Origin: Bacillus sp. 103mf
GTDB lineage: Bacteria > Bacillota > Bacilli > Bacillales > Bacillaceae_G
Length of the DNA: 64,000 nt
Assembly (NCBI RefSeq): GCF_900116295.1
Contig: NZ_FPAF01000004.1
Coordinates: 186,001-250,000 of the forward strand
Direction of reading: 5' to 3'
Numbering within the stretch: the first letter of the stretch is position 1; each line of letters starts with the position of its first letter. Shown one piece after another: positions 7,356-28,109 of this stretch. Under the pieces are notes generated by a model that did no database searches, was not told where the DNA came from, and saw only the letters and a list, made by a program, of their open reading frames with translations. The translations under genes were made by a program, and so were the position numbers.

Positions 7356-7398
7356 TCACTTTATGTCATTTTTATTTCATAAAAAGGAGAAGATTAAA

Positions 7399-9384: not shown

Positions 9385-9393
9385 TACTTAGAG

Positions 9394-9425
9394 GAGCATC
9401 GCTATACTGCCATCGACTTAAGCAT
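9394..9425 (+). repeat. Partial left end of a bcr1-like repeat
   Basis: GCATCGCTATACTGCCATCGACTTAAG resembles the left end of the element at 1923 (GGTCACTATACATGCCCATCAACTTAAG). No right end follows; a terminator takes its place. Confidence 0.35.
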
Positions 9426-9449
9426 TTAGGTTCTATTTTTAAAGATAAA

Positions 9450-9497
9450 AGCACGTTACTATTCTCTTATACGAATGAGAATAGTAACGTGCTTTTT
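9450..9497 (+). terminator. Rho-independent terminator after PBP3-like gene
   Basis: A perfect 17-bp stem (AGCACGTTACTATTCTC at 9450-9466 with its complement at 9477-9493) followed by a T-run. Confidence 0.9.
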
Positions 9498-9504
9498 ATG
9501 AAAG

Positions 9505-9540
9505 GAGTAACGTCAGAAAATTGGTTCTCACGCTAAGAGC
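9505..9540 (+). repeat. Degenerate copy of the CGCTAAG repeat family
   Basis: GTAACGTCAGAAAATTGG..ACGCTAAG aligns loosely with GTACCGTCAGGAAAATGAGG..ACGCTAAG at 31944-31985. It sits directly next to the decayed PBP gene start. Confidence 0.35.
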
Positions 9541-9604
9541 ATGTCGAATCAAAAATACCTAGAATCGAAAGGAGCACTAAAATCCTCCATCTTTTTGTAT
9601 GTAA
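9533..9604 (-). pseudogene. Second decayed copy of the PBP-like gene start
   Basis: Read in reverse, this encodes LHTKRWRILVLLSILG before diverging and stopping. That is almost the same as the start of the truncated PBP-like gene at 4613-4798 (MLHTKTKRWGILVILSILG). The initiation codon is lost. The DNA similarity extends through 9605-9690, matching about 4800-4890, so this is a duplicated and decayed segment rather than chance. It lies between the PBP3-like gene and the beta-lactamase. Confidence 0.65.
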
Positions 9605-9769
9605 TCTACTTTATCTTAAGATTGAATTATTTTTAAAAAAATTATGGAACAATATTGTTATTTAGATTGTCTATTAAGTGTAATTTTAAAAATGGGTGTT
9701 CAAATTGGATGCATTGTATCTAATTTAATATCTGTTTTAAGTATTAAAATTCTGAAGGGAATGATCATT

Positions 9770-10690
9770 TTGAAAACTACAAGGATGCTAAAAATAGGAA
9801 TGTGTGTTGGCATACTAAGTTTAAGTCTTGCAAGCGTAAAATTCTTTACAGGTGAACCACTGCAAGTTGAAGCAAAAGAAAAAACAAAGCAAACCAAGCA
9901 TACAAATCATGCGACTCATCGAGAGTTCGCTCAACTTGAGAAAAATTTTGACGCTCGACTAGGTGTCTATGCTATTGACACTGGTACAAACCAGACAGTA
10001 ACTTATCGACCTAATGAAAGATTTGCTTACGCATCTACCTACAAAGCTCTGGCGGCAGGAGCCGTACTACAGCAAAACTCAATTGACAAATTAAACGAAG
10101 TCATTACCTATACCAAAGATGACTTAGTTACCTATTCACCAGTCACAGAGAAACATGTGGACACTGGGATGACGCTTGGAGAAATTGCAGAGGCTGCTAT
10201 TCGCTACAGTGATAACACCGCGGGGAATCTTTTATTCAAGAAACTAGCCGGACCTAAAGGATTTGAAAAGGCACTTAGACAGATTGGTGATAGAGTTACC
10301 ATGGCTGATCGCTTTGAGACAGAGTTGAACGAAGCTATTCCGGGAGACATCCGTGATACAAGTACACCTAAAGCACTTGCTACCGATCTTAAGGCTTTTA
10401 CAGTCGGAAATGCACTCCCAGCTGACAAACGTAAAATTCTTACAGATTGGATGCGTGGAAACACTACAGGAGACAAACTCATTCGCGCTGGCGTACCGAA
10501 AGATTGGGAAGTCGGTGATAAATCAGGAGCCGGAAGCTACGGAACACGAAATGATATTGCGATCGTTTGGCCACCGAATAGAGCACCCATTATCATCGCA
10601 ATTCTGTCCAGCCGAGATAAGAAAGATGCTACCTATGATAATGAACTGATCGCGCAGGCTGCCAAGGTTACAATTAATGCTCTAAAATGA
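9770..10690 (+). CDS. bla: Class A beta-lactamase, B. cereus penicillinase type
   Basis: A serine beta-lactamase that hydrolyses penicillins outside the membrane. The TTG at 9770 is preferred: GAAGGGA lies 9 bases upstream and the product starts [18 protein letters not shown] like known B. cereus enzymes (about 306 residues). Upstream in-frame ATG codons would add an unlikely extension. A signal peptide ends near residue 25-30. The class A motifs are intact: S89-T-Y-K92, S147-D-N149, E183-T-E-L-N187 (the Glu166 box) and K251-S-G253. It is very close to B. cereus beta-lactamase I. No blaI/blaR1 regulators are visible. A terminator follows. Confidence 0.95.
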
Positions 10691-13954: not shown

Positions 13955-14037
13955 TTGAAAAACGAAGTTACTTTAGATTAGAACGTGAATAAATGGTCAT
14001 AATAGTAATCATGTATATTAATTTAAAGGATGATATG

Positions 14038-14544
14038 ATGATTTATATTTATACTGATTATGGCGGGACACATACAACTTCACTAGCAGCAGCGTATCAT
14101 TTAAAAAAACTACCAACCAATCGGAAACTCACGAAAGATGAGATATTAAATGTTGATTATTTTAATAAACTAAAAACTTCTGATATGGGAAAAATTATTT
14201 TTCACGGACGAGATGAAAATGGAGATTCTGTTTATACAGTCGGCCATGGTGCATCTAAAGTTGTAGTTCCAGCTTTAAAAAATTTAAGTGTACTGTTACA
14301 AGAGAAATATCAAAACCATGAAAAAATTGTGTTCTCTAATACATCACCAACCGTTCCGTTTGCTATGACAATTGGTGGTTTATTTTCGAGAAGATTAAAA
14401 ATTGATTTTATTGGTGTACCGTTGTTAGTTTTCGGGGCAAAACAAGCTTGCGATAATATTATCAGGCTCGTAGAATATACAAAACAGGGCGGAAGGTTAA
14501 CAAATGAAGATGTTGTAGTATTAGAAAATGAAAATTTTAAATAA
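14038..14544 (+). CDS. DUF3189 family protein
   Basis: A 168-residue protein starting MIYIYTDYGGTHTTSLAAAYHL, matching what I know of DUF3189 proteins of spore-forming Firmicutes. AAAGGA lies 7 bases before this ATG; longer starts lack one. The N-terminal GGTHTTSLAAA looks like a nucleotide- or phosphate-binding loop, but no function is established. It follows the histidine kinase by about 80 bp and could be co-transcribed with it. A shared bidirectional terminator separates it from the convergent gene. Confidence 0.75.
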   Translation: MIYIYTDYGGTHTTSLAAAYHLKKLPTNRKLTKDEILNVDYFNKLKTSDMGKIIFHGRDENGDSVYTVGHGASKVVVPALKNLSVLLQEKYQNHEKIVFSNTSPTVPFAMTIGGLFSRRLKIDFIGVPLLVFGAKQACDNIIRLVEYTKQGGRLTNEDVVVLENENFK

Positions 14545-14549
14545 TAGTT

Positions 14550-14596
14550 ATAACAAAAAGGATGGCTAATCATATATTAACCATCCTTTTTGTTAT
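14550..14596. terminator. Bidirectional terminator
   Basis: ATAACAAAAAGGATGG (14550-14565) pairs with CCATCCTTTTTGTTAT (14581-14596), with T-runs on both strands. It serves convergent genes and overlaps the stop codon of the reverse-strand gene. Confidence 0.9.
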
Positions 14597-15297
14597 AATA
14601 TCTCAACTTTTTTTCGAATGACAATCTTATCAATGTCCTCTTCTTCATCACCAATATATAAACCGCGTTCTCTTAAATACATCTCAAAATATAAATCAGC
14701 TTCAGCGCGTTCATCGTATGGCTTTACAGATAAAACAAATCCCAATTTATGTTGCTCTTCCAATTCAACAGTAGAAATATAAGCTGGAATTTTATTACGT
14801 AAAAATAACTCCTTAACTGGAATAATCATGTCTTTCATTAACTTTGATAAAAGGCTCATTTCAAATTCGAAATTAAAGCGATCAATGCTTGATAAATCTG
14901 CAAAAACAACACCAATGAAACCAGTATTAAAAATTTCTTGATAATTTTCTTCTTCTATATTTCCGTTGTAAAAATTCTTTTCAATTAAGTAATTTTTAAA
15001 ATAAGCAATGCCTTCAGCTTCTTTAAAAGGTTTTGTAGAAAGAACAAAACCAATTTTCTGTTGTTTATGTAAATATGCACACGATAAGTAAGCAGTAACA
15101 TTATATTCAGCGAAAAGAGAACTTGTTGCTTGCGCAAGACCATCTAACACATGATGCACAATATGTAGTTGTTTACGAGAGAAGTAATATGATTTTTTTT
15201 CAAGTTCCAATGTATCGATAAACACAGAGCCAATAAAGCCTGTATTTGAAATAGTAGGAGTATGCTTTTTTCTTCCTCTGCGTTTATTTTGAGCCAA
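14593..15297 (-). CDS. Hypothetical protein with a duplicated domain
   Basis: A 234-residue protein of unknown function. It starts at TTG with AGGAAGG about 10 bases upstream. The sequence is an internal tandem duplication: residues about 17-112 and 123-216 align as SNTGFIGSVFIDTLELEKK / FNTGFIGVVFADLSSIDRF and KIGFVLSTKPF / KLGFVLSVKPY, both ending in an NY/MYL..K/RGLY-type helix. The N-terminus is very basic (KRRGRKK) and the C-terminus mixed acidic. No signal peptide or membrane helix. The paired motifs look like a small alpha/beta fold, but I do not recognise the family. Confidence 0.7.
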   Translation of the reverse strand: MAQNKRRGRKKHTPTISNTGFIGSVFIDTLELEKKSYYFSRKQLHIVHHVLDGLAQATSSLFAEYNVTAYLSCAYLHKQQKIGFVLSTKPFKEAEGIAYFKNYLIEKNFYNGNIEEENYQEIFNTGFIGVVFADLSSIDRFNFEFEMSLLSKLMKDMIIPVKELFLRNKIPAYISTVELEEQHKLGFVLSVKPYDERAEADLYFEMYLRERGLYIGDEEEDIDKIVIRKKVEIL

Positions 15298-15421
15298 TGA
15301 AATCCATCCTTCCTAGTACCTGTCCCATAAGGGAGAAGATGCAAACGAACATTTGTTCTTATATTTATATTGTACTATGTATTAGTTGAAAAGTAAATAT
15401 TTTATTCGCAAAATAAACAAA

Positions 15422-15443
15422 AAGATGCCTCAAAAAGGCATCT
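15422..15443. terminator. Small hairpin between reverse-strand genes
   Basis: AAGATGCCT pairs with AGGCATCTT around a short A-rich loop. T- and A-rich flanks make it a plausible terminator for the small reverse-strand gene at 15496-15600. Confidence 0.6.
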
Positions 15444-15495
15444 TAATTAAGAAGAGGGAAGAGTACTTACCCCATAATATTATGTATAATTTATA

Positions 15496-15600
15496 TTAAG
15501 AAACAGATACAAATTCTTCTGCATCTTCGACATCTAAATGGCAATCCATTGTACGTACATCTTGATCTTCATGGCTTCCAAAATAAATAGTAATTTTCAT
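15496..15600 (-). CDS. Small acidic hypothetical protein, 34 residues
   Basis: A short gene with a strong ribosome binding site (AAAGGAG, 7 bases before the ATG). The product starts MKITIYFGSHEDQDVRTMDC and ends EDAEEFVSVS. It is acidic, with no signal or membrane segment. The clear ribosome binding site and its own downstream hairpin support a real gene. Function unknown. Confidence 0.6.
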   Translation of the reverse strand: MKITIYFGSHEDQDVRTMDCHLDVEDAEEFVSVS

Positions 15601-15765
15601 ATGTATCGCTCCTTTATTTTAGGAATACCTAAAATAATCATTTATTGTTTTCTATTATATACCACTTTACACATTCCTACAATCTTATCGTTAGTTTAAA
15701 AAATGTTTCTTTAATATTAAGAAAATTGTTATAATAAATTCATCTATATTGAAGGAGGAAATAAC

Positions 15766-15822
15766 ATGCAAAAAACATTAAAAATATTTTCAAATGTAGG
15801 AAGAGGAGTGAATATTAACTAA
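15766..15822 (+). CDS. 18-codon leader peptide before MFS transporter
   Basis: The ORF MQKTLKIFSNVGRGVNIN has a very strong ribosome binding site (GAAGGAGG, 7 bases before the ATG) and ends 66 bp before the start of the MFS gene. Codons 12-15 (GGAAGAGGAGTG) form the first arm of an RNA structure that competes with the hairpin hiding the MFS ribosome binding site. This arrangement is typical of leader peptides in translational attenuation of antibiotic-resistance genes. That it is translated and regulatory is inference. Confidence 0.6.
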   Translation: MQKTLKIFSNVGRGVNIN

Positions 15823-15883
15823 CACAATATAGCACTCCTGCTTCCTAAAATCATTATGAAAAATGAACAACGGAAAGTAGGAG
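15799..15883 (+). promoter_or_regulatory. Putative translational attenuator of MFS gene
   Basis: There are three segments. Segment 1 is GGAAGAGGAGTG (15799-15810, inside the leader ORF). Segment 2 is CACTCCTGCTTCC (15833-15845). Segment 3 is GGAAAGTAGGAG (15872-15883) and contains the ribosome binding site of the MFS gene. Segment 2 can pair with segment 1 (12 bp, one bulge) or with segment 3 (11 bp, one bulge, one G-U), so the two structures exclude each other. Pairing 2-3 hides the ribosome binding site; pairing 1-2 exposes it. Ribosome position on the leader ORF could decide which forms. Confidence 0.6.
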
Positions 15884-15888
15884 AATAA

Positions 15889-17112
15889 TTGAAGAGACAA
15901 ACAATCGCAACGCATAATATTTCGATTTTATTTTGGGTACAGTTTTTTGGAACGATTAGTTTTTTACAGCCGGTAATGACACTTTTTTATATGGAAAGAG
16001 GTTTAACAGCAGCAAATATATTTATTGTGATGATGTGTTGGAGCGGGGCAGTACTTGTTGGGGAAATTCCAGCAGGTGTTTTTGCTGATCGCTTCGGTGC
16101 AAAATTATCGTTTTTGACAGGATCTATCATAAAAACGTTTAGTATTTCTATCTTGCTATTTGCAGATAACCTATGGTTATTTTGTCTATATAGTTTATTG
16201 AATGGATTGTCGGTTACATTTTTCTCCGGAGCAGACGAAGCGCTAATTTATGAGTCTTTAAAAGAAAACAATGAGCAACATGTAATGGATCAAGCAATGG
16301 GAAAAATCCAATCGGCGGGCTTTATTTCCATGTTATTCGCAGTAATTTTCGGTTCGTATTTCGCTAAAGATCTACGAGAAGAACAATTTACACTATTAAT
16401 TGTTCTCGGAATAATATTTCATTTGGTAGAACTTGCTTTACTATTTTTCATTAAAAGTCCAAAGAAACTATCATCTTATCGGGAAGAATCTTTTTCACAA
16501 GTAATCGAAGGAATAAAGGTTATTCGTAAAGCGCCACAATTACTCGTTATGTTTTTAAACGTCTCACTTGTATTCATTCCGGCAAGTGCAGTATATGATA
16601 CATTTAATCAACCACTGTTTACGAACGCAGGACTTCCTGTATTTGCAATTGGTATTATGTACGCTTTAGCTGCCATTCTTGGATACTTTTCTTCGATATC
16701 AATTGGCTGGCTTACTAGCAGATTTTCACGTGCAATTTTAATGAATGTGACAGGTGGTTTAGCCGTTGGTGGTTTATTGTTATCAACATTTTTCGGAGAT
16801 ACATTGTGGGTTATATTAGGAGCATTCTTTATGTTACGGTTCGTACGTGCCATTAGATATCCGATTTACTCGCAGCTTAGTAATGACATGATCCCGTCTC
16901 ATGTACGTGCAACAACGATTTCGTTATTGTCTGTGCTAGATTCGATATTAGATCTTATTATTTTCGGAACACTATCATTCGTAGCCGTTAAATCATTACC
17001 ATTTGTATTCGCCGGCTGTGCATGTATTGCATGTATCGGGACGTTTTTACCGATACAAAAAAATGCTGTGGGCGTTACGGCGCAGCGTAGAATGAATCGA
17101 AATATAAAATAA
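15889..17112 (+). CDS. MFS transporter, drug-efflux type
   Basis: A 407-residue major facilitator superfamily protein with about twelve hydrophobic segments. It begins at TTG after GTAGGAG. After the second membrane segment it has the loop GVFADRFGAK, equivalent to the MFS motif A (G-x3-D-R-x-G-R/K). It also has GADEALIYESLKE, a segment I associate with multidrug or macrolide-type efflux MFS proteins; the substrate is not readable. The leader ORF and competing hairpins immediately upstream suggest inducible expression, as for ribosome-targeting antibiotics. A strong terminator follows. Confidence 0.82.
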   Translation: MKRQTIATHNISILFWVQFFGTISFLQPVMTLFYMERGLTAANIFIVMMCWSGAVLVGEIPAGVFADRFGAKLSFLTGSIIKTFSISILLFADNLWLFCLYSLLNGLSVTFFSGADEALIYESLKENNEQHVMDQAMGKIQSAGFISMLFAVIFGSYFAKDLREEQFTLLIVLGIIFHLVELALLFFIKSPKKLSSYREESFSQVIEGIKVIRKAPQLLVMFLNVSLVFIPASAVYDTFNQPLFTNAGLPVFAIGIMYALAAILGYFSSISIGWLTSRFSRAILMNVTGGLAVGGLLLSTFFGDTLWVILGAFFMLRFVRAIRYPIYSQLSNDMIPSHVRATTISLLSVLDSILDLIIFGTLSFVAVKSLPFVFAGCACIACIGTFLPIQKNAVGVTAQRRMNRNIK

Positions 17113-17115
17113 AAT

Positions 17116-17150
17116 ACTCCCCCAAAGTGTGCTATAAACTTTGGGGGACT
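17116..17150 (+). terminator. Rho-independent terminator after MFS gene
   Basis: ACTCCCCCAAAGT (17116-17128) pairs with ACTTTGGGGGACT (17138-17150), followed by TTATGTTT. Confidence 0.85.
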
Positions 17151-17218
17151 TTATGTTTACATTATAAAAAATTATTAGTAGGCAATATAATAGTTTGAAA
17201 TATATGGAGGTCAACCTA

Positions 17219-17650
17219 ATGTTACATATAGTGAAAGCAAAACTTGATGATTTACAATGGATTAATTCTCAATACGAAAAGGCTGATTTTGTACCATCAC
17301 ATTTAGACAATGAGGAGATTGGAATTGCGTATTTTAATGGTCAAAAGGCTGGCTTAGGAAGGTTAGTAAAAGTTGATGAAAACACCTTTGAAATGGGTGG
17401 GATATATACGTTAGAAGACTATAGAGGAAAGAAAATTGCTGATAGTATCGTTGCATTTCTTATTAAAGAAGCTCGGAAACTTCAAATTCAAAATGTATAT
17501 TGCATTCCATTTGAACACTTAAAACCTTTTTATAGTAAACATGGATTTCAAGAAGTAGTAGATTTAGCTGCAGTTCCTAAACTGGTTATAGATAAATATA
17601 ATTGGTGCTTAGAGCAATACGATATAAAAACATTGTTAATGAAATTATAA
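17219..17650 (+). CDS. GNAT-family N-acetyltransferase
   Basis: A 143-residue acetyl-CoA-dependent acetyltransferase. The ATG at 17219 has GGAGG 8 bases upstream; the longer frame from 17195 has no such site. The acetyl-CoA binding stretch is GGIYTLEDYRGKKIADSIVAFLI (beta4 and the R/Q-x-x-G-x-G/A loop in the variant form YRGKKIAD). A C-terminal PFYSKHGFQEV is the usual GNAT ending. Substrate unknown. It lies alone between terminators. Confidence 0.82.
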   Translation: MLHIVKAKLDDLQWINSQYEKADFVPSHLDNEEIGIAYFNGQKAGLGRLVKVDENTFEMGGIYTLEDYRGKKIADSIVAFLIKEARKLQIQNVYCIPFEHLKPFYSKHGFQEVVDLAAVPKLVIDKYNWCLEQYDIKTLLMKL

Positions 17651-17655
17651 ATTTG

Positions 17656-17681
17656 AAAACACACATAGCGTGTGTTTTTTC
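17656..17681 (+). terminator. Rho-independent terminator after GNAT gene
   Basis: AAAACACAC and GTGTGTTTTTT surround a short loop just after the stop codon. Confidence 0.8.
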
Positions 17682-18034
17682 TTTTGTCAAAAAACGTTTA
17701 GGGAATAAAAAGCATGAAAATATGCATTGTTTTACAATTATTCACTCCTTCATAATCTCCGCTAGTACTCCTGATAATTTATACTTCTTTCCCGGTGTTG
17801 ATATATTTATATTTCTCATTTTATTTTTAGTAGATACTTTTAGGGATTTTTATGTTTACAAACCTAGAACTATGATTACTTTACACGATCCAAAATTAGG
17901 CATTTGAACAAGTTACAATACCTAATTATAGGTCATACTTTGTTGAAGAGTGCATTCGAAAAAATCTATTGTCTTATCTATTGCAGGACGTATTTTCATT
18001 ATGGCTTGCTAATTATATACATGGAGGTAATGAA
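17682..18034. other. Region upstream of bacteriocin precursor
   Basis: About 350 bp with no convincing gene. It presumably holds the promoter of the bacteriocin precursor. A short inverted repeat (CCTAATTATAGG, about 17923-17934) is present. The ribosome binding site of the precursor is TGGAGGT at about 18022-18028. Confidence 0.5.
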
Positions 18035-18346
18035 ATGAATAATTTTCAACAAGAACTTCAAACGTTAAATTTAAATGATTATAATGCTGGAAATATTGTG
18101 TACTGGGATAGTCAAATTCCTTCTCCATACTACATTGATGACGACTATACTCGTCGTTGCGGAGGATGTGGTCGTTGCGGAGGATTCGGTCGTTGTGGAG
18201 GATTTGGTCGTTGCGGAGGATTCCGTTGCTTTGGATGCTTTGGATGCCTTGGATGCGGCGGTTGTGGCGGTTGTGGTGGTTGTGGCGGTTGCGGAGGATT
18301 TGGCGGTTGTGCTGGATTCTGCGTGGACGGAGTATGCTTTATTTAA
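18035..18346 (+). CDS. Heterocycloanthracin/sonorensin-family bacteriocin precursor
   Basis: A 103-residue precursor from the ATG at 18035 (GGAGG about 7 bases upstream). Residues 1-41 are a Cys-free leader (MNNFQQELQTLNLNDYNAGN, then IVYWDSQIPSPYYIDDDYTRR). Residues 42-103 are the core, with 16 cysteines mostly in Cys-Xaa-Xaa units such as CGG, CGR, CFG, CLG and five CGG in a row, ending CVDGVCFI. This is the pattern of the thiazole/oxazole-modified heterocycloanthracin family, whose Cys residues are cyclised to thiazoles. The three genes downstream encode exactly the expected RRE/E1-like, YcaO and SagB-type enzymes. In the published B. anthracis/B. cereus description as I recall it, the precursor lies far from these genes; here it lies 197 bp before them. 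Confidence 0.9.
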   Translation: MNNFQQELQTLNLNDYNAGNIVYWDSQIPSPYYIDDDYTRRCGGCGRCGGFGRCGGFGRCGGFRCFGCFGCLGCGGCGGCGGCGGCGGFGGCAGFCVDGVCFI

Positions 18347-18370
18347 CTCTTATTTTTTAATTGAAACTTT

Positions 18371-18426
18371 ACTTAAAGAAAAGCGTTTCTACATGAATTT
18401 TATTGTAGAGACACTTTTCTTTAAGT
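18371..18426 (+). promoter_or_regulatory. Long hairpin between precursor and maturation genes
   Basis: A 23-bp arm (18371-18393, starting ACTTAAAGAAAAGCG) pairs with 18404-18426 (ending TTTTCTTTAAGT), with two mismatch or G-T positions and a ten-base loop. No clean T-run follows, so it may be a partial terminator or an mRNA-stability or processing element that keeps precursor mRNA in excess of enzyme mRNA. Confidence 0.75.
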
Positions 18427-18543
18427 ATGATAAACCACTCTTCTTCTTTCCGTTTGACATAAGAAAAAATAGTATACATAAAATTGTTATGACGGAAGTT
18501 ATCATGCTCATTCAAGAACAATGAACAGAGAAGGAGGAGTACA

Positions 18544-20469
18544 ATGACAAAATTAAACGCTTCGACACGTTTGAAAATGAAAAGAGATACTTTTTTTCTC
18601 TCTGATCCAAAAGGGGAAGTGTATTTTAGAAATAATGCCAGTTCATTTCGAATGGAAGGGAAGTCTATCAATCAATGGATCGAAAAATTAATACCAATGT
18701 TTAACGGAGAACACACATTAGGAAATTTGACAGCTGGCTTACCTGAGCCATATCGAAAGCGAGTATTTGAAATAGCAGACATACTGTACCAAAATGAATT
18801 TGCAACAGACATAAGTCAAGATTATCCACACCAATTGCCAGAAAATATTCTCAAAAAATACGCATCACAAATTGAATTTTTAGATAACTTCGGCGTGTCT
18901 GGGGCATACCGTTTTCAAACGTATCGTCAAATGAAAGTATTAGCTATCGGTTCTGGTTCTTTTTTTGTTTCCCTTATTTCCGCATTACTTGAATCAGGAT
19001 TACCACAATTCCAGATGCTAATTACTGATTCCGTACAAACCAATAGAAGAAGATTAAAAGAATTAATAGCATATGCACAAAAAACAGATCCTGAAGTGGC
19101 GATTGAAGAAATTTTTTTACAAAAAGAAAAAAGAAATGGTTTGAAAGATGCGGTGCAGCCATTTCAGGCGATTTTGTATGTATCACAAGGAGAAGACATA
19201 GAGGAATTAAAAATTTTTCATGCTATTTGTAAAGAAGAAAAAAAGATTTTCATCCCTGCCATATCTAAGCAAGGAGTCGGATTAGCCGGGCCACTCGTAC
19301 ACTCAGAAAGTGATGCTTGCTGGGAATCAGCTTGGCGACGTATACACAAGTCTGCATTTTCTAAAACTTCAGGGGAACACACTTTTTCTTCTACAACGGA
19401 AGCAATGTTAGCAAATGTAGTGGTATTTGAACTGTTCAAAAAGGTTACAGATGTAACGAAACCCACGCAAACGAACCAATTTTTTCTGTTAAATTCCGAA
19501 ACGTTAGAAGGAAACTGGCATTCCTTTTTACCTCATCCTTTAGTAACTGAGAAAATGGAAATCGAATGGGTCCAAGACTTTAATACGAGAATCAAAGAGA
19601 GCTCAAATAAAAATGAATTGAATGAATCTACTCTGAACTTGAATTATCTTGTATCAAAAGAAGCAGGGATTTTTCACACTTGGGAAGCAGGTGACTTAAA
19701 ACAGCTACCAGTGGCTCAATGTCGTATTCAAACAGTTGATCCACTGTCAGAAGGCCCTGCTGAATTATTACCAGATATGATTTGTACAGGTTTGACGCAT
19801 ATGGAAGCAAGGTACGAAGCTGGATTAGCCGGAGTTGAGACCTATATATCGCGAATAGCTAGTTCAAAGTTTTCTGAACATGGGCAATTTATAGGAATTG
19901 GAGCCGGGGAAACGATTGCAGAATGTGTATCTAGAGGATTACAAAAATGTTTAGATGAAGAATTTCATAAGAGACAGACGAGTCAAAATATTGTTGTTTC
20001 TCGAGTAGAATTAGACGCAATAGAAGATGAGCGCTGCCGCTTTTATTTGCAAGCACTTACTACTCTGCAAGGAGCACCTACAATTGCTTTTGGTGAAGCC
20101 ATTTTCGATTTCCCTGTTATATGGATTGGCACGAATAATCACTGGTATGGAAGTGTAGGGTTAAATAGAACAATCGCGTTACGTAAAGCATTACAACAGG
20201 CACTTACAGAAGCACAAAATTGTGATGATTGCTGCGCATCACAAGCGCTAGAGGCTTCATCAGTTTTATTACAAGATACAATGCCATTACACTCCGCCAT
20301 TTCTTCTTGTGAAAACATGACGCAAGAAGAAATATTACAATCTGCTGAACAGACATTAAAACAAAATGGAAAACGGCTCTGCGTATTTGAAATATCACTA
20401 GAAGCAATCTGGAAGGAGGAACTAGCAGGACTATTTGGAGTATTATTGGGAGAGGAGGAATCCCATTGA
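18544..20469 (+). CDS. Thiazole-bacteriocin maturation protein, RRE plus E1/ThiF-like
   Basis: A 641-residue cytosolic protein. Residues about 14-88 (RDTFFLSDPKGEVYFRN onward) look like a PqqD-like winged-helix RiPP recognition element that would bind the precursor leader. Residues 130-260 contain a Rossmann-type loop (VLAIGSGSFFVSLISALLE), as in E1/ThiF-like partner proteins. The C-terminal half contains stretches (HPLVTEKMEIEW; MEARYEAGLAGVETYIS) echoing the YcaO partner. It matches what I know as the putative thiazole-containing bacteriocin maturation protein. It starts after AAGGAGGAG and overlaps the next gene by 4 bases, implying translational coupling. Confidence 0.85.
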   Translation: MTKLNASTRLKMKRDTFFLSDPKGEVYFRNNASSFRMEGKSINQWIEKLIPMFNGEHTLGNLTAGLPEPYRKRVFEIADILYQNEFATDISQDYPHQLPENILKKYASQIEFLDNFGVSGAYRFQTYRQMKVLAIGSGSFFVSLISALLESGLPQFQMLITDSVQTNRRRLKELIAYAQKTDPEVAIEEIFLQKEKRNGLKDAVQPFQAILYVSQGEDIEELKIFHAICKEEKKIFIPAISKQGVGLAGPLVHSESDACWESAWRRIHKSAFSKTSGEHTFSSTTEAMLANVVVFELFKKVTDVTKPTQTNQFFLLNSETLEGNWHSFLPHPLVTEKMEIEWVQDFNTRIKESSNKNELNESTLNLNYLVSKEAGIFHTWEAGDLKQLPVAQCRIQTVDPLSEGPAELLPDMICTGLTHMEARYEAGLAGVETYISRIASSKFSEHGQFIGIGAGETIAECVSRGLQKCLDEEFHKRQTSQNIVVSRVELDAIEDERCRFYLQALTTLQGAPTIAFGEAIFDFPVIWIGTNNHWYGSVGLNRTIALRKALQQALTEAQNCDDCCASQALEASSVLLQDTMPLHSAISSCENMTQEEILQSAEQTLKQNGKRLCVFEISLEAIWKEELAGLFGVLLGEEESH

Positions 20470-22409
20470 GCGCTTCGATTTTAATTATTGGAGAGGGGCT
20501 ATTGGCAAATCGTGTATATGAAGAATTATCAGTCCAATATGAAATCACTCAATACACGGATTTTGATCGAAAAATACCAGCAACGACCGATTTAGTTCTC
20601 GTATTACATGATACTTGGAATCCTTCATTTCATAAGCAGGCAGAAAGCGTACTTCAATCAACGAATATTCCTTGGCTGCGAGCTTTCGTTTCATTTGGAG
20701 AAGGAATAATCGGTCCGCTAGTTCGCCCAGGCACACCAGGATGTTCAGAGTGTGCAGATATACGCCGTACTTTCGCAGGAAATGATTCTAAAGAGATGTG
20801 GGGGATCATGCAGATCTTAACAACAAATAAGGAAATACCTCGAGACATATGGGCATCAAGTAATGGATTATTACAGATGACACATCTTCTGCTAGAAGAA
20901 GTCCAGTGCATTTTACAAGGTGATCATGCACGATCAGAAGGACACATGTTTTTCGTTAATTTACAAACATTGAAAAGCTCATATCATTTTTTTCTACCTC
21001 ATCCTTTATGCTCAAATTGTAGTCAATTGCCTAATGACTCATCACATTCAGCTAAGATTTCATTGCAATCAAGCCCGAAGATTAGCATAAATGATTATCG
21101 TTGTCGTTCCATTTCTGAACTGAGTAAAGTATTAGCCAAGGATTATCTAGATTATGAGACTGGGTTTTTAAATGATAAAATGTATAACCTTACACCTCCT
21201 TTTGCCGAGGTAAGTGTAAATCTTCCGTTGCTCTTTGGAAATGAAGGAACAGCTGGGCGTACCCATTCATATGCAACTAGCGAATTAACTGCTATTTTAG
21301 AAGGATTAGAACGATATTGCGGTCTAGAACCTCGGGGGAAACGTACAGTTATTCAGGACACGTTCCGCAATTTAGCTCATCAAGCACTTAATCCCCTTGA
21401 AGTGGGTGTACATGCAACGGAACAATATATGCAACCTAATTTCCCGTTTAAACCGTTTCATCCAGATCGTCCAATGAACTGGGTATGGGGTTATTCACTT
21501 TTGCAAGAACGTCCAATTTTAGTTCCAGAACTACTTGCTTATTATAGTTTAGGCGGTAGAGATGGTTTTGTTTATGAGACTTCCAATGGTTGCGCATTGG
21601 GTGGCAGTTTAGAAGAAGCAATTTTTTATGGCATTTTAGAAGTGATTGAGCGCGATTCATTTTTGTTAACTTGGTATGCCGAGCTGCCTCTCCCGCGTCT
21701 TGATCTTTCTTCTGTCAATGATCAAGAGTTGCAGTTGATGGTAGAACGCGTGCATACAGTAGGGGGATATGATATACATTTGTTTAACTCGACAATGGAG
21801 CACGGCATTCCAAGCGTCTGGGCACTAGCAAAAAACAGAAAGGAGAAAGGATTAAATATTATCTGTGCAGCTGGAGCTCATTTAGATCCGATACGAGGGG
21901 CGAAAAGTGCAATATATGAATTAGCTGGTATGATGTTAACACTTGATAAGGAATTTGAGATGAATCGCAAGAAATATGTACAGATGTTCCATAATCCTTC
22001 CCTCGTGAAGCAAATGCCTGACCATCCTAAGGTATGCGGTTTGCCAGAAGCGGAAGAACGGTTTCAGTTTTTACTAGATAATAATCGCCCGTTACAAACG
22101 TTTACTGAGGCATTCAAGCAAAAAACAAGACATGAGGACTTGACAGATGATTTAAGAGAAATAATTCAGATGTTGCACCAGTTGAACCTCGATGTGATTG
22201 TGGTAGATCAGACAACACCAGAAATAATGCGAAATGGATTACATTGTGTGAAAGTACTCATTCCAGGAATGTTGCCAATGACATTTGGGCACCATCTTGC
22301 GCGCTTAACAGGTCTAGAGAGAGTATTACGGGTGCCAATGGAACTTGGATATACGAAGCAACCGCTATCGTTTGAACAACTCAATCCACATCCGCATCCA
22401 TTTGCGTAA
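20466..22409 (+). CDS. YcaO-domain cyclodehydratase (SagC-D type fusion)
   Basis: A 647-residue enzyme that uses ATP to cyclise Cys residues of the precursor to thiazolines. It starts at TTG inside the stop of the previous gene, with AGGAGG 8 bases upstream. Residues 1-220 form an E1-like docking part with Zn-type pairs CSEC and CSNC. The YcaO domain spans about 230-647, with the ATP-binding glutamate-rich helix SYATSELTAILEGLERYCG and a second one EEAIFYGILEVIERDSFLL. It ends in NPHPHPFA, the C-terminal P-x-P-x-P motif of azoline-forming YcaO proteins. All core features are present, so it is probably active. Confidence 0.92.
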   Translation: MSASILIIGEGLLANRVYEELSVQYEITQYTDFDRKIPATTDLVLVLHDTWNPSFHKQAESVLQSTNIPWLRAFVSFGEGIIGPLVRPGTPGCSECADIRRTFAGNDSKEMWGIMQILTTNKEIPRDIWASSNGLLQMTHLLLEEVQCILQGDHARSEGHMFFVNLQTLKSSYHFFLPHPLCSNCSQLPNDSSHSAKISLQSSPKISINDYRCRSISELSKVLAKDYLDYETGFLNDKMYNLTPPFAEVSVNLPLLFGNEGTAGRTHSYATSELTAILEGLERYCGLEPRGKRTVIQDTFRNLAHQALNPLEVGVHATEQYMQPNFPFKPFHPDRPMNWVWGYSLLQERPILVPELLAYYSLGGRDGFVYETSNGCALGGSLEEAIFYGILEVIERDSFLLTWYAELPLPRLDLSSVNDQELQLMVERVHTVGGYDIHLFNSTMEHGIPSVWALAKNRKEKGLNIICAAGAHLDPIRGAKSAIYELAGMMLTLDKEFEMNRKKYVQMFHNPSLVKQMPDHPKVCGLPEAEERFQFLLDNNRPLQTFTEAFKQKTRHEDLTDDLREIIQMLHQLNLDVIVVDQTTPEIMRNGLHCVKVLIPGMLPMTFGHHLARLTGLERVLRVPMELGYTKQPLSFEQLNPHPHPFA

Positions 22410-22431
22410 GTGATGATTAGGAGGGGGAAGG

Positions 22432-24003
22432 ATGGGTTTAGAGACATTTTTGAACAATTTACATTTTCATACTGACGAAGCAACCTCTTCGACTTGGGAG
22501 GTGGATTGGGAAGATGGACCACTTTCATATAAACTTTATCGGGACTTACCAGGAATTCCGTTATCTTCAGAAGTAACATTAACACTTGAGAACCTCGAAG
22601 TATCAACAGAACCTAATCTTCGCGAAATCGGTCATTTTCTCTGGTACGTATTTGGGATTACTCAATTCTGTCAGTCAACCTTACCGACACCAGAAATAAA
22701 TTTTATGCAGTCGTATCGAAGATTTGTTCCCTCGGGCGGAGGCTTATATCCAAATGAATTGTATATATATTTAAAGATGGAAAATGTGCCTACCGGAATT
22801 TACCACTATGATGTAGCGCACCACCGCTTAGTGTTATTAAGGGAAGGGCATTTTGATTCATATGTAGCCCAGACTCTTGGGAATAGCTGTGACACATCGG
22901 CTTGTTTTGGTGTTATTTTTGTATCGACAATGTTTTGGAAAAACTTCTTTAAATATCATAACTTTTCTTATCGTCTGCAAGGACTAGATGCAGGCGTATT
23001 AATAGGACAATTGCTAGAAGTAGCAAAACGATTCCACTATACATCAAGTGTGCATTTCCAATTTTTAGACCGTTCCATTAATCATTTACTCGGGTTATCC
23101 GAACAAGAGGAGAGTGTATATGCAGTTATCCCTCTATCAGTAAATTCTGGAACCCCGCAGTCTAATAATGAGAATGATGCTACGGATAAAGAAGTCTCTG
23201 CAACTCAATTATGCGAAGAATTACCAGTTATTCATCATAATCACTATGTCCGATCACGAAAGATTGCACAGTATCCGATGCTGATTCAAATGAATGAAGC
23301 ATCTATGCTTGAATCTACACGATCGTTTCACAAAATCAAGAGTGAAACGAATAGAATGCGTGATGGTCAAGCGTTAGTTCTTCCCCGTATAAAGCGAATG
23401 TCGTACGACTTAACAGCCGCATGCCAAAATCGATTTTCACCGGAAATGGATTTTACTTTTAGGAAAATAAGTCAAGAACAATTGACTACGTTACTGCATG
23501 AGGCAACTGCTTCTTTCGCCTATCAAAACGATTTAGATACAAATCTTGAAGAACCCGCATCCCGTGTTTCCATATACGTATGTTTATTTGGCGTTGAAGG
23601 TATCCCAAACGGCGCTTATCATTATGACAATGATGCTCATGCATTACGACAAGTACATCTTGGAGATCATCGATTTTTACTGCAAAGCGGGATGACATTC
23701 CACAATGTGAATCTCTTCCAAGTACCACTTTGTCTGCATGTAGTAGGAGATAAAAATCATCTTAAAAGAGAACTTGGATATAGGGGATACCGAATTCAAC
23801 AGATGGAAGCAGGCATACTTGTACAGAAATTATTGTTAGCAGCTTCTGCTCTTGGGCTAGGAGGACACCCGCTTCTTGGGTTTGATGTCAACTTGTGTGA
23901 TGAGCTTTACAGGTTGGATTCAGAAGAAAAAACGAGTCTTATCCAAATTCCGATTGGTTTCCATCGTCAACGTCCTTGGTTGAAAGGGAGTTTGCATAGT
24001 TAA
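22432..24003 (+). CDS. SagB-type azoline dehydrogenase, two nitroreductase-like domains
   Basis: A 523-residue FMN enzyme expected to oxidise thiazolines to thiazoles. The first domain (about residues 60-230) has FVPSGGGLYPNELYIYLK and GIYHYDVAHHRLVLL; the second (about 310-510) has GAYHYDNDAHALRQV and YRGYRIQQMEAGILVQKLLL. These are the paired SagB/nitroreductase signatures, and the second domain's YR..QMEAG resembles the first domain's YRLQGLDAG. AGGAGGGGG precedes the ATG, 22 bp after the YcaO gene. A terminator closes the operon. No export, protease or immunity gene is found downstream. Confidence 0.88.
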   Translation: MGLETFLNNLHFHTDEATSSTWEVDWEDGPLSYKLYRDLPGIPLSSEVTLTLENLEVSTEPNLREIGHFLWYVFGITQFCQSTLPTPEINFMQSYRRFVPSGGGLYPNELYIYLKMENVPTGIYHYDVAHHRLVLLREGHFDSYVAQTLGNSCDTSACFGVIFVSTMFWKNFFKYHNFSYRLQGLDAGVLIGQLLEVAKRFHYTSSVHFQFLDRSINHLLGLSEQEESVYAVIPLSVNSGTPQSNNENDATDKEVSATQLCEELPVIHHNHYVRSRKIAQYPMLIQMNEASMLESTRSFHKIKSETNRMRDGQALVLPRIKRMSYDLTAACQNRFSPEMDFTFRKISQEQLTTLLHEATASFAYQNDLDTNLEEPASRVSIYVCLFGVEGIPNGAYHYDNDAHALRQVHLGDHRFLLQSGMTFHNVNLFQVPLCLHVVGDKNHLKRELGYRGYRIQQMEAGILVQKLLLAASALGLGGHPLLGFDVNLCDELYRLDSEEKTSLIQIPIGFHRQRPWLKGSLHS

Positions 24004-24032
24004 CAACCATGTAATTTATATGGAAATGAGGT

Positions 24033-24063
24033 AGCTTGGATTCAATTGAATTCAAGCTTTTTT
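24033..24063 (+). terminator. Terminator of the bacteriocin operon
   Basis: AGCTTGGATTCAATTGAATTCAAGCTTTTTT folds into a stem with a T-run. A closely similar hairpin occurs at 25853-25886. Confidence 0.85.
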
Positions 24064-24106
24064 AATGTAATCTGATTGAAAATGAGTTGTTGTCAAAAAC
24101 TAAGAC

Positions 24107-24130
24107 TAATTTCATTTACCGTATTTTTAC
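24107..24130 (+). repeat. 24-bp motif shared with 58038-58061
   Basis: The 24 bases containing ATTTCATTTACCGTATTTTT recur exactly, in reverse, at 58038-58061, and with a few changes at 25928-25950. Here and at 25928 the motif follows an AGCTTGGATT-type terminator by about 45 bp, so motif and hairpin may be one repeat unit. Confidence 0.6.
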
Positions 24131-24228
24131 ATTTGATAATATTAATTCACGTTTCATGGTTCCAATAGAGTAAAAAGAACAATATAGGGCATGACTACAT
24201 TTAAAAAGATGTGAAGGAGATAACCAAA

Positions 24229-24372
24229 ATGAAAAAACAACCTAATGATAATAAAAAACCAAACATTAAAAAATTAAACACAGAAGAAAATGCTATTTAT
24301 AGCGATCCAAAAGATGCGAGTAATATGCAACCAATACCACAACCAAAAGATTATGATGAAATAGAGTATTAA
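24229..24372 (+). CDS. Small hydrophilic hypothetical protein, 47 residues
   Basis: The ATG follows GAAGGAG. The product is very polar and Lys/Asn-rich (MKKQPNDNKKPNIKKLNTEE) and ends QPIPQPKDYDEIEY, so it is basic at the start and acidic at the end. No signal peptide or membrane helix. A terminator follows directly. It resembles the 41-residue product at 25705-25830 in style. Such small proteins in Bacillus are often spore-associated; that is a guess. Confidence 0.6.
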   Translation: MKKQPNDNKKPNIKKLNTEENAIYSDPKDASNMQPIPQPKDYDEIEY

Positions 24373-24380
24373 TACAGTAG

Positions 24381-24419
24381 AAAAAGGAACAGAAACGTTA
24401 TTATTTCTGTTCTTTTTTT
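24381..24419 (+). terminator. Rho-independent terminator
   Basis: AAAAAGGAACAGAAA pairs with TTTCTGTTCTTTTTTT just after the small gene. Confidence 0.9.
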
Positions 24420-24466
24420 AAGTTACTGAGCAGCTAGTGATTATTCACTACATCCATTTTTTCGTG

Positions 24467-24778
24467 CTATTCCTTATTGGAAGGCGGAAAAGAAAGAAAG
24501 ATTAATGAATCAATAAGTTCGACAGAAATGTTGAAATCATCATGAATGGTAATTTCTACACATGTAACTAATGGTAACGTAATAATAAGTACGTCACCAT
24601 CAATGATAACTCCTGATGAACATGTATCGTAGTCACTTATAGACAGCTCTATGTTTATACCTGGAGAAATTAAAATTTCCAAACATATATTTATGCATTG
24701 TTCGAATACGTAAGCGATTGTAGACCTCTCCTTTCTACATATCCACAATTTATATGTAGATAGACGTTTAAATTCCAT
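24467..24778 (-). CDS. Hypothetical protein, beta-rich, 103 residues
   Basis: An unrecognised protein with alternating hydrophobic and polar residues (INIELSISDYDTCSSG, DVLIITLPLVTCVEI, FNISVELIDSLIFL), suggesting a small beta-sheet fold. It contains six cysteines. The ribosome binding site before the ATG at 24778 is weak (TTTAGAG), and a good AAAGGAG lies inside the frame without a usual start codon after it, so the start is uncertain. It is isolated between small genes. Its style recalls spore-coat-associated small proteins but I cannot name a family. Confidence 0.5.
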   Translation of the reverse strand: MEFKRLSTYKLWICRKERSTIAYVFEQCINICLEILISPGINIELSISDYDTCSSGVIIDGDVLIITLPLVTCVEITIHDDFNISVELIDSLIFLSFPPSNKE

Positions 24779-24980
24779 CTCTAAAAGTAACTCTCATACC
24801 ATACTATTTAAAGATTTATCTTCTTGATTGGACAGGTTATCTATTTATAAAAAATAAATTTCTGTAGTAAAGGGTGGATCTGGAGAATTATATAAAAGCA
24901 TTTTCTAGGGGCAATCGGGGACTACCACAATAATAAAATCGAGATTTCTATCCTTTTGTATCATTACTTTCATGAATATG

Positions 24981-25023
24981 AAAAGTCCGATATAACTTTA
25001 ATGAAGTTACAATCGGACTTTTT
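24981..25023. terminator. Hairpin with T-runs on both sides
   Basis: AAAAGTCCGAT (24981-24991) pairs with ATCGGACTTTTT (25012-25023). It lies downstream of the reverse-strand gene 25068-25400 and is probably its terminator. Confidence 0.8.
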
Positions 25024-25067
25024 ATGTCAAAATTATCTTAATGTAATTGTTCATTAGCGAACGTTAT

Positions 25068-25400
25068 TTAAAAATTTTCATACCTCATCCATCCACTTTC
25101 AGATCGTTCCGCTTTATATTTACCGTAAGACAGAAGCTTCATTGCTGAACGATTGGCTGCGTGAAAAACTAAGCTCAGCTTCCGTTCTTCGTCCATTTCA
25201 CTCGGATAGGTCGTAGATTCATAAACATAATAAGCTGCCATAATACAGGGGACTACTTGTTCCGGTTCAAATTCATATGCAGTTGCATCATCGACAACGA
25301 AATCAATAAGACATCGGTTTTCATCTAACATTTCTTTTTGGAGTAACTTTTTTACCGGTTCCGGTACTAATTCTAATATTTTATTTCTCAGAACAGTCAT
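25068..25400 (-). CDS. Hypothetical protein, 110 residues
   Basis: An unrecognised soluble protein, probably mostly helical (MTVLRNKILELVPEPVKKLL; ERKLSLVFHAANRSAMKLLSYG). Its ATG overlaps the TGA of the upstream 50-residue gene (ATGA), so the two are translationally coupled. No signal or membrane segment. The operon ends at the hairpin 24981-25023. Confidence 0.65.
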   Translation of the reverse strand: MTVLRNKILELVPEPVKKLLQKEMLDENRCLIDFVVDDATAYEFEPEQVVPCIMAAYYVYESTTYPSEMDEERKLSLVFHAANRSAMKLLSYGKYKAERSESGWMRYENF

Positions 25401-25549
25401 TTTTTCGCTCTTTCAGCACGAAGAATTGCATCATTTGTTGGTGTGTTAGGTACAAAATTCCCATGACTATCAATGCTATGCGCTTCTTTATCATATTGTC
25501 CGTTAGCATTACGTTTCTTTATTGTAAACGGGTTTTGATTGTTTCCCAT
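25397..25549 (-). CDS. Small basic hypothetical protein, 50 residues
   Basis: The ATG follows a strong GGAGGTGA 5 bases upstream. The product starts MGNNQNPFTIKKRNANGQYD and ends NDAILRAERAKK; it is hydrophilic and Asn/Lys-rich. The stop overlaps the start of the 110-residue gene by 4 bases. Too short to assign; the coupling suggests the two products work together. Confidence 0.65.
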   Translation of the reverse strand: MGNNQNPFTIKKRNANGQYDKEAHSIDSHGNFVPNTPTNDAILRAERAKK

Positions 25550-25704
25550 ACTTATCACCTCCAATAAATAGTATGTGCAAATCAGAAACTATTTTGTCTA
25601 AAAGATATTTTACAAAAAGTGGAATAGGAATGACGATTTACCCTGTATGAAATAGTTCCTTTCGTAAAAAATAGGTACAAACCTTAACAAAAGGAGGGTA
25701 AATT

Positions 25705-25830
25705 ATGACGAATCGAAATGATAATCGAGAACGTAAAAACAAATATCCTAACAATCAAAAAAACGATACTGAATTCTCCAAAGATGTAAATATTAGAAGC
25801 GAAGTAACAAAAAAAGATTTAAAAAAATAA
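25705..25830 (+). CDS. Small hydrophilic hypothetical protein, 41 residues
   Basis: The ATG follows AAAGGAGGG. The product is extremely polar (MTNRNDNRERKNKYPNNQKN; ends SEVTKKDLKK), and similar in style to the 47-residue product at 24229-24372. A terminator of the AGCTTGGATT type follows within 25 bp. Probably a genuine small, perhaps spore-stage, protein. Confidence 0.6.
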   Translation: MTNRNDNRERKNKYPNNQKNDTEFSKDVNIRSEVTKKDLKK

Positions 25831-25852
25831 TGTTTTGAACCATTAAATACTG

Positions 25853-25886
25853 AAAAAGCTTGGATTCAATCAAATCCAAGCTTTTT
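25853..25886 (+). terminator. Rho-independent terminator, AGCTTGGATT type
   Basis: AAAAAGCTTGGATT pairs with AATCCAAGCTTTTTC. It is nearly the same hairpin as at 24033-24063. Confidence 0.85.
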
Positions 25887-25927
25887 CAAATGATAGAAAT
25901 CCAACCATATTTCTCATAAAAAAGGAT

Positions 25928-25950
25928 GAATTTCACTTACCGTATTTTGG
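25928..25950 (+). repeat. Diverged copy of the TTACCGTATTTT motif
   Basis: GAATTTCACTTACCGTATTT differs at a few positions from the 24-bp motif at 24107. It lies about 150 bp before the speD start. Confidence 0.45.
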
Positions 25951-26098
25951 TAATGAAAATTAAAACCAACCATTAAATCATATTTAATGGTTGGTAAGCA
26001 ATCTTAAGACACATGTATTAAAAAATTGTAGGATGGAACTATATTTCATAAAGAGTTTGTCAATCATTATTGAATATAAAAAAGAGGGGGCATTCACC

Positions 26099-26935
26099 AT
26101 GAAACTAACACCAGAGCAGCGAATTCAATTGCACGGATTTAATAATCTTACAAAATCATTAAGTTTTAATATGTATGATATTTGCTATACCAAAACAAGA
26201 GAAGAACGAGAAGCATACATAGAATACATAGATGAACAATATAATGCAGACAGATTAACAAAGATTTTAAAAAATGTATCTGATATTATAGGTGCACACG
26301 TATTAAATGTTGCGAAACAAGACTATGTTCCACAAGGAGCGAGCGTAACAATATTAGTTTCAGAAGGCCCGATTGTAGAAGTTCCAACTGAATCATTTAA
26401 CGAATCACCCGGTCCTCTTCCTGGATCAGTCGTTATACAATTAGATAAGAGCCATATAACAGTTCATACGTATCCGGAATATCACCCAGATGAAGGAATC
26501 AGCACTTTTAGAGCAGACATCGATGTATCTACATGCGGCGAAATCTCGCCTCTTAAAGCACTAAATTATTTAATCCACTCATTTGATACGGATATTATGA
26601 CCATTGATTACCGAGTTCGTGGCTTTACAAGAGATATAACAGGTAACAAATTATTTATTGACCACGAAATAAACTCCATCCAAAATTACATCCCAAAGAA
26701 TGTAAAAAAAATGTATGACATGATTGATGTCAATGTATATCAAGAACATATTTTTCATACAAAATGCAAATTAAAAGAGTTTGACTTAAATAATTATTTG
26801 TTTGGATATACACAAGAAACATTGTCTGCAGACGAACAAGAAAAAATTACAAAGCAATTAAAATTGGAAATGGACGAAATATTTTATGGAAAGAATATGA
26901 ATCATGGTTCTATTGAAGAAGGTTCAAATGAATAA
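26099..26935 (+). CDS. speD: S-adenosylmethionine decarboxylase proenzyme, E. coli-like class
   Basis: A 278-residue pyruvoyl enzyme that makes decarboxylated SAM for spermidine synthesis. I start at the ATG at 26099 (GAGGGGG upstream); the longer frame from 25991 lacks a site. The self-cleavage motif [13 protein letters not shown] is present, and Ser118 would become the pyruvoyl group. [17 protein letters not shown] is the other conserved stretch. Length fits the long (E. coli) class, not the short class typical of B. subtilis. No spermidine synthase gene is adjacent. Confidence 0.92.
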
Positions 26936-26991
26936 TAAATACACAACATCAGTTGGACATCGCAAGTACTAATGAGAATCTACTACTTACT

Positions 26992-27022
26992 AAAAACAGG
27001 GAGATAAAATTCCTGTTTTTTT
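26992..27022 (+). terminator. Terminator after speD
   Basis: AAAAACAGGGA and TTCCTGTTTTTT form a short stem with a T-run. Confidence 0.75.
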
Positions 27023-27104
27023 ATATGCTACATGTAAAGAAAGGTATTCTTCATTTTTTGTCGAAATTAAAATTTGTCATAGATCTGTTAAAGGAAGGTA
27101 AAAA

Positions 27105-28109
27105 ATGAAAAAATACGAACAATTAATTTCATGGGTAGAAAATATAAAAGAACGAAACCACAGCTCTTCTGCTGCACTTTTTATTATGAAAGATAATGAA
27201 GTTGTATTGGAGCATTATAGTGGAACCCACTCTAATATAAAAAATAGTTCTCCTATTACTGCAACTTCACAGTTTAACGTTGCTTCTGCAAGAAAAAGTT
27301 ATTTAGGACTTGCGATTGCCTACGCGCTTTATGAAGGAAAAATTAAGAGTTTAGACGATTATGCTGTGGATTACTTTGAAGAGTGTGACAAAACTTTACT
27401 TGGTAAGACAACCTTAAGGCACTTAGTCACTCATTCGCACGATCTCCATATGAGTGACAGCGGGATTACGTACCGGGAATTTGAACCTGGGGAAGAATGG
27501 GCTTATAGAGGTATTAATGTTGAAATGATGACGCAGCTAATTTATAAGTTATATAATAAAAGCTTTCCGGAATTACTGAAAGAACGAGTCTTTATACCTG
27601 CAGGTTTTACGGAAACAGCTTGGCAAACAACAGATCATGAAAATTTAGTAAAAGTAGTCATAAATCCAAATGAAGAAGCTGTAAGTAAGATAGGAGTATC
27701 AGATGACGGGACAGAATCGAATCTTTTTGTCTCCGCTAAAGAGTTTGCTTATTGGGGACACCTTCACTTAAATAAAGGGTATATGAATGGAAAACAAATT
27801 GTACCAGAAGAAGTTATTGAGATTGCAACACAAGTTCATTCTCCTTATTATAAAAATCCAAATTTACCACAAAACGGATTGTTTTGGTTTGTTCAGAATG
27901 CACCAGCACTGCAAAGCGAAATAGGAGAAAGAGTTCCAAAGGGATCTTATCAAATATTAGGTATAACAGGACCAACAATTTTAGTTATTCCTGAATATAA
28001 TGTCGTTGTCGCAAAGATGTATAACAAAAGATATAACTATGGAGGAGACAATTATCTACAATATTTAAGAGAATTTAGCAATTTAGTGGCTGATATGTTT
28101 GCTTATTAA
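27105..28109 (+). CDS. Serine hydrolase, beta-lactamase class C/PBP4* family
   Basis: A 334-residue protein of the beta-lactamase-related serine hydrolase family (esterases, D-amino peptidases and class C relatives). The active-site motif is S61-A-R-K64 in FNVASARKSYLG. The Y-x-N-type tyrosine is probably in EWAYRGINVEM, and HITG-like GITGPT near the end replaces the KTG box. No signal peptide is seen, so it is probably cytosolic. AAGGAAGG precedes the ATG. Despite the fold, beta-lactamase activity should not be assumed. A terminator lies about 175 bp downstream. Confidence 0.85.
   Translation: MKKYEQLISWVENIKERNHSSSAALFIMKDNEVVLEHYSGTHSNIKNSSPITATSQFNVASARKSYLGLAIAYALYEGKIKSLDDYAVDYFEECDKTLLGKTTLRHLVTHSHDLHMSDSGITYREFEPGEEWAYRGINVEMMTQLIYKLYNKSFPELLKERVFIPAGFTETAWQTTDHENLVKVVINPNEEAVSKIGVSDDGTESNLFVSAKEFAYWGHLHLNKGYMNGKQIVPEEVIEIATQVHSPYYKNPNLPQNGLFWFVQNAPALQSEIGERVPKGSYQILGITGPTILVIPEYNVVVAKMYNKRYNYGGDNYLQYLREFSNLVADMFAY

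Follow-up and report, generated by a model that had tools for sequence, protein, structure and literature searches.

The 64,000-nucleotide stretch of Bacillus sp. 103mf analysed here (contig NZ_FPAF01000004.1, positions 186,001 to 250,000; hereafter the window) carries on its forward strand a complete, correctly named heterocycloanthracin-type locus, in which the gene for a cysteine-rich precursor peptide precedes three maturation genes, encoding an F protein, a fused YcaO cyclodehydratase and a SagB-family azoline dehydrogenase. Promoter-type patterns upstream of the precursor and of the F gene make it probable that this locus forms two mother-cell transcription units, with the enzymes under σE and the precursor under σK and GerE, and that it yields an azole product with no dedicated exporter. 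We infer sporulation control of the locus from these sequence patterns; the adjacency of precursor and operon changes nothing by itself, and the promoter result is the part that deserves a second look.

Promoter-type patterns and possible transcript boundaries

Relatives of the window locus were obtained via YcaO similarity as 77 named loci (L001-L077). In many of these loci, inspection by eye revealed a block upstream of the precursor of the form AATAGGC...AGTAACAACGACCTAA-N-TCATAATTTGTTGAAGAGAGT, which we take to be a σK-type promoter (AC...CATAnnnTR) accompanied by a GerE-like box. In the window, the σK-type pattern of the precursor, AC-N17-CATACTTTG, lies at 17915-17942 (+), and a GerE-like box, AATTAGGCATTT at 17894-17905 (+), is an exact match to the consensus RWWTRGGYNNYY. 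When searched with the pattern AC-N15-17-CATAnnnTR, which was kept unchanged throughout, 63 of 82 precursor regions gave a match, compared with 23 of 675 control regions, and 57 of 75 loci had at least one precursor with the pattern. A GerE box no more than 60 nt upstream of the σK pattern was found in 50/82 precursor regions and in a single control (1/675). Outside the discovery set, the σK pattern was present in 14 of the 15 genomes with a profile-detected precursor, being missing in G010; of three more genomes, G287 and G383 had the pattern and G333 did not. At the level of genus labels, 14 of 19 had at least one locus with the pattern. Moreover, a second precursor of Ectobacillus funiculus (G002), located on another contig, has GerE and σK sites of its own. 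Directly 3' of the σK-type -10 element, many of the loci L001-L077 share a conserved stretch, TTGTTGAAGAGAGTAC, often with ACTCTC further on; this stretch is a possible 5' leader hairpin.

Upstream of the F gene, the block seen by eye in many loci was CATAwtGGACAAA-N7-TACATAAAATGATAG, which we take to be a σE-type promoter (ATA...CATAnnnT). The corresponding pattern of the window, ATA-N15-CATAAAAT, is located at 18459-18484 (+). With the pattern ATA-N15-17-CATAnnnT, which had been widened after inspection, 69 of 78 F regions matched, as did 9 of 675 controls; before widening, the numbers were 55/78 and 3/687. At least one locus with the σE pattern was found in 16 of 20 genus labels. Both promoter patterns were simplified from consensus sequences and PMC517825. 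According to that paper, σE and σK promoters of B. subtilis have a common -10 element and differ in one -35 base, which is T for σE and C for σK. The two blocks found in the window's family differ likewise, with ACA upstream of the precursor and ATA upstream of F, at a similar distance from CATA. SpoIIID-like boxes were modestly enriched upstream of F (30/78 regions vs 59/687 controls) and overlapped the σE pattern in 23/78 regions and in none of the 687 controls. Involvement of SpoIIID was set aside, as the window has no exact SpoIIID-like box in the 160 bases before F.

A strong hairpin lies between the precursor and the F gene (18370-18427, +; -28.5 kcal/mol, z -7.96) and possibly separates the two transcription units. 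Among 71 precursor-F gaps of at most 450 bp, the window included, 44 had a z below -2, and in a number of relatives' gaps a GC-rich stem stands near a T-rich stretch; the 18370-18427 stem of the window, however, has no T-run after it. Downstream of SagB, an 11-pair stem followed by TTTTT (24033-24058, +) resembles an intrinsic terminator, as a pattern match only; 7 terminator-like patterns were found in the region, with 4.3 expected from shuffles. No RNA families were found in 17600-24600.

Gene content of the locus

The precursor gene (18035-18346, +) opens with ATG at 18035, has its stop at 18346 and encodes 103 residues with 16 Cys, just as counted in an earlier, sequence-only reading of this DNA. 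Its product matches the heterocycloanthracin/sonorensin model TIGR03601 with 101.1 bits (cut-off 35), which upholds the family assignment made in that reading. All 16 Cys are downstream of an Arg-Arg pair, which is followed by a core of Cys-Xaa-Xaa repeats (TRRCGGCGRCGG...); such an Arg-Arg boundary before the core has been described for the heterocycloanthracin family (PMC2674419). A profile search of open reading frames (ORFs) of 40-260 residues found no second precursor in the whole window.

The F gene (18544-20469, +) begins with an ATG 197 bp after the precursor, the distance given in the sequence-only reading. That reading had called its product "RRE/E1-like"; the protein is there, but its proper identity is that of an ocin-ThiF-like TOMM (thiazole/oxazole-modified microcin) F protein, a leader-peptide-binding protein (TIGR03693, 772.1 bits, cut-off 561.9). 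The fused YcaO cyclodehydratase (20466-22409, +) starts with a TTG and overlaps the F stop by 4 bp; it matches TIGR03604 (433.5 bits, cut-off 219.25), TIGR03882 (142 bits) and PF02624. After a gap of 22 bp follows the SagB-family dehydrogenase (22432-24003, +), which matches TIGR03605 in two stretches (226.3 bits, cut-off 78.4). The functions proposed earlier for the three genes agree with these NCBIfam matches, and the over-cut-off matches and the spacing indicate a single operon for the F protein, the fused YcaO and the SagB dehydrogenase, as family membership requires. Together with the precursor they make up four intact frames, each above its curated NCBIfam cut-off. The YcaO had also been said to end in PHPHP; this motif is present but not terminal, since the C-terminus reads NPHPHPFA, with two residues after the motif. 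A PxPxP was found within the last eight YcaO residues in all 77 relatives, 76 of which end in PHPFP, compared with PHPFA in the window (22386-22409). A 2015 survey (PMC4603692) states that the F protein binds the leader, that the truncated fused cyclodehydratase depends on F, and that every cluster shares only the cyclodehydratase, the F protein and the B protein.

To compare the surroundings, ORFs 90 codons or longer, located between -6.5 and +9.5 kb of F, were clustered in 78 loci (the 77 and the window; some of them shorter). By this crude clustering, YcaO recurred in 78 loci, F in 77, SagB in 74 and the precursor in 56, and the next cluster beyond these four genes was found in 13/78 loci; the first few clusters after the 13-locus one were opposite-strand ORFs inside the operon coordinates. 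Among the window's neighbours, the genes for a major facilitator superfamily (MFS) protein, a GNAT protein, a DUF3189 protein, a beta-lactamase-fold protein and SpeD, as well as three minus-strand genes, had no match in the 77 loci at E 1e-8, and the MFS and GNAT genes are thereby ruled out as locus members. Because these neighbours are unmatched and no fifth cluster goes beyond 13/78 loci, none of the genes for export, immunity or proteolysis can be singled out as a member of the locus, a result that agrees with the 2015 survey on the genes common to all clusters. Further downstream, 25991-26935 encodes an S-adenosylmethionine decarboxylase that matches the E. coli type model with 468 bits.

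Two other assignments were tried and rejected. A thiopeptide locus, which would share the F protein, was excluded by the TIGR03601 precursor and by the lack of a match to a pyridine-forming enzyme among the ten proteins scanned in 13993-28109; in two small minus-strand ORFs, searched against Pfam only, no thiopeptide-type enzyme was matched either. Plasmid carriage of the locus was likewise rejected, as a DNA search of plasmids returned two Paenibacillus records with 15% coverage each. The precursor had no match among the plasmids searched, and the F protein had seven partial matches. A 21.6-kb plasmid of Paenibacillus larvae (NZ_CP019653.1, 8333-9196) matches the first 289 F residues only, with 61.6% identity.

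Proposed timing of expression and its weighing

Following what is known or proposed for the family, the F protein would bind the leader of the precursor and hand it to the YcaO cyclodehydratase, which would convert core Cys to thiazolines that SagB would then oxidise to thiazoles. For the heterocycloanthracin/sonorensin family, in vitro reconstitution is stated in PMC4603692. The enzyme operon would be switched on early in the mother cell from its σE-type promoter and the precursor late from its σK/GerE-type promoter, and the enzymes would already be waiting once their substrate appears. The product would most likely be an azole peptide of the mother cell, freed at lysis or attached to the spore surface, and a dedicated exporter would therefore not be needed. 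Two putative mother-cell units, together with the absence of a fifth gene from more than 13/78 loci, suggest a late sporulation product. As a late transcription unit of its own, the precursor could be placed anywhere in the genome, which would account for the distant precursors reported in 2009. The broader proposition, that heterocycloanthracin-type peptides in general are spore-surface or lysis-released azole material of the mother cell and not primarily exported bacteriocins, with the distant precursors explained in this way, is put forward tentatively and with slightly less than even confidence.

Late-sporulation timing in the mother cell is not usually given for a heterocycloanthracin "bacteriocin", and a search conducted largely at the level of titles and abstracts found no prior statement of sporulation control for such loci; mention elsewhere is possible. 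If confirmed, the promoter pattern would bring a large group of ribosomally synthesized and post-translationally modified peptides (254 clusters in the 2015 survey) into the programme of spore formation. It would also explain why precursors wander and why neither an exporter nor an immunity gene is conserved, and the product would be expected not in growing cells but in spores and in the lysates of cultures that sporulate.

Several points weigh against sporulation-timed expression. The σK pattern was absent in Brevibacillus (0/3) and in Alicyclobacillus, Alkalihalobacillus, Metabacillus and Schinkia (0/1 each), and the σE pattern in Brevibacillus (0/4) and in Alicyclobacillus, Cohnella and one Paenibacillus (0/1 each), so that Brevibacillus and Alicyclobacillus have neither. 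In the further genomes, the σE pattern was found in 7/16 before widening and in 15/16 after, and the σE spacer of the window, 15, is the shortest allowed. No paper with the string of the GerE-like consensus, RWWTRGGYNNYY, was found. The motifs were noticed by eye before they were counted. The controls were regions upstream of any ORF of at least 180 codons, many of them inside operons and therefore not matched for base composition, and the further genomes are mutually related, because 12/15 belong to one family. In addition, sonorensin is described as an antibacterial substance that makes membranes more permeable, and a putative gene of the family was up in biofilm cells of B. cereus (PMC6962202).

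The family name and this reported activity of sonorensin also favour the main alternative, in which the locus would encode a classical secreted stationary-phase bacteriocin, made from one σA transcript, with export and immunity unlinked and the promoter-like blocks incidental. An MFS gene upstream of the precursor (15889-17112) could be read in the same sense, but neither it nor the GNAT gene or the other neighbours tested recur in the relatives' loci. Moreover, σ70-like matches showed no excess (20 found vs 23.7 expected from shuffles), whereas the sporulation-type blocks occur far more often than in controls. We therefore regard the classical bacteriocin as unlikely; a bacteriocin released by lysis would be compatible with mother-cell expression.

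Arrangement of the locus and closest known systems

The sequence-only reading was right that the precursor adjoins the maturation operon, and took this for a novelty: a self-contained, perhaps ancestral or transferred form unlike a usual distal arrangement. The premise behind it, that the precursor is always far away, holds for the 2009 abstract, which says that precursors of B. anthracis and B. cereus are "always encoded far" from the operon, but the text of the same paper describes a B. licheniformis precursor that adjoins two maturation genes (PMC2674419). Among the 254 clusters of the 2015 survey, 14 precursors lie no more than 10 kb away (PMC4603692), and a 2024 paper, which examined Parageobacillus and Saccharococcus, reports the four-gene locus in all of them except two (PMC11270796).

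Adjacency was also the most frequent order in three overlapping genome samples, which represent sampled Bacillales without telling B. cereus group genomes apart. The precursor was detected by profile upstream of F in 72 of the 77 named loci, with gaps of 119-1066 bp (median 170); in L067 and L069 it was overlooked by our own profile and found with TIGR03601, giving 74/77, and in L004, L048 and L077 no precursor was found upstream of F. SagB was found in 73/77, in the same order. In the family of E. funiculus, 18 of 19 genomes hold both genes, and the precursor is just upstream of F in 18/18. An order-wide sample of 397 genomes included 92 with an over-threshold F. A TIGR03601 match, accepted at E up to 0.001 and in some cases under the curated cut-off, lay within 1 kb upstream of F in 79/92 (median gap 193 bp) and 4-10.1 kb upstream on the same strand in 4/92; in 9/92 no match was found upstream of F. 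Of 94 genomes in which TIGR03601 matched, 93 entered this count, G293 having no listed F match, and one of two overlapping G002 pieces on contig C35 was left out. The adjacent order is therefore the usual arrangement in sampled Bacillales, and the locus is an ordinary one. The idea of an unusual form is refuted as a general claim and has very little probability left. An "ancestral" form would fit the wide occurrence of adjacency among Bacillales genera, and no sign of a "transferred" one was encountered. More than one precursor-like ORF was seen in L023, L029, L034, L037, L043 and L065, not all with a σK match.

A decayed or silent locus, which the deviating last YcaO residue might indicate, is scarcely credible, given that all four frames are intact and over their cut-offs and that the locus has promoter-type blocks as well as a strong hairpin.

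Elsewhere in the window, 4982-10690 holds the genes for a pair of penicillin-binding proteins, of which the second has a MecA_N domain, and after them that for a class A beta-lactamase. A collagen-like repeat protein (589-1530), whose Pfam collagen match is just below the cut-off, has an exosporium-type look. An ORF with LAGLIDADG-like domain matches (54037-54807) is perhaps a free-standing homing endonuclease.

Among known systems, B. anthracis heterocycloanthracin (BA_2677; operon BA_1266-1268) has in common with the window the TIGR03601 leader family, the Arg-Arg pair before a Cys-Xaa-Xaa core and the three kinds of maturation protein, whereas 1.27 Mb separate its precursor from its operon (PMC2674419). 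B. licheniformis ATCC 14580 has a TIGR03601 relative beside two maturation genes, as in the window, with a core rich in Cys-Trp-Ser where that of the window is rich in Cys-Gly-Gly (PMC2674419). Sonorensin is filed in the TIGR03601 precursor family. The linear azol(in)e-containing peptide (LAP) locus of Parageobacillus, with a cyclodehydratase, a maturase, a dehydrogenase and a TIGR03601 peptide of 74-113 aa, resembles the window in gene content, and no difference in gene content was seen (PMC11270796); the YcaO of the window shares 71% identity with its P. caldoxylosilyticus counterpart. By RNase J DNA, the closest of 19 genomes to the window is G005 (84%; YcaO DNA 73%), which likewise has an adjacent precursor with σK and GerE-type sites but, unlike the window, carries two tandem precursors (L096:9342-10448), each with σK and GerE-type sites of its own.

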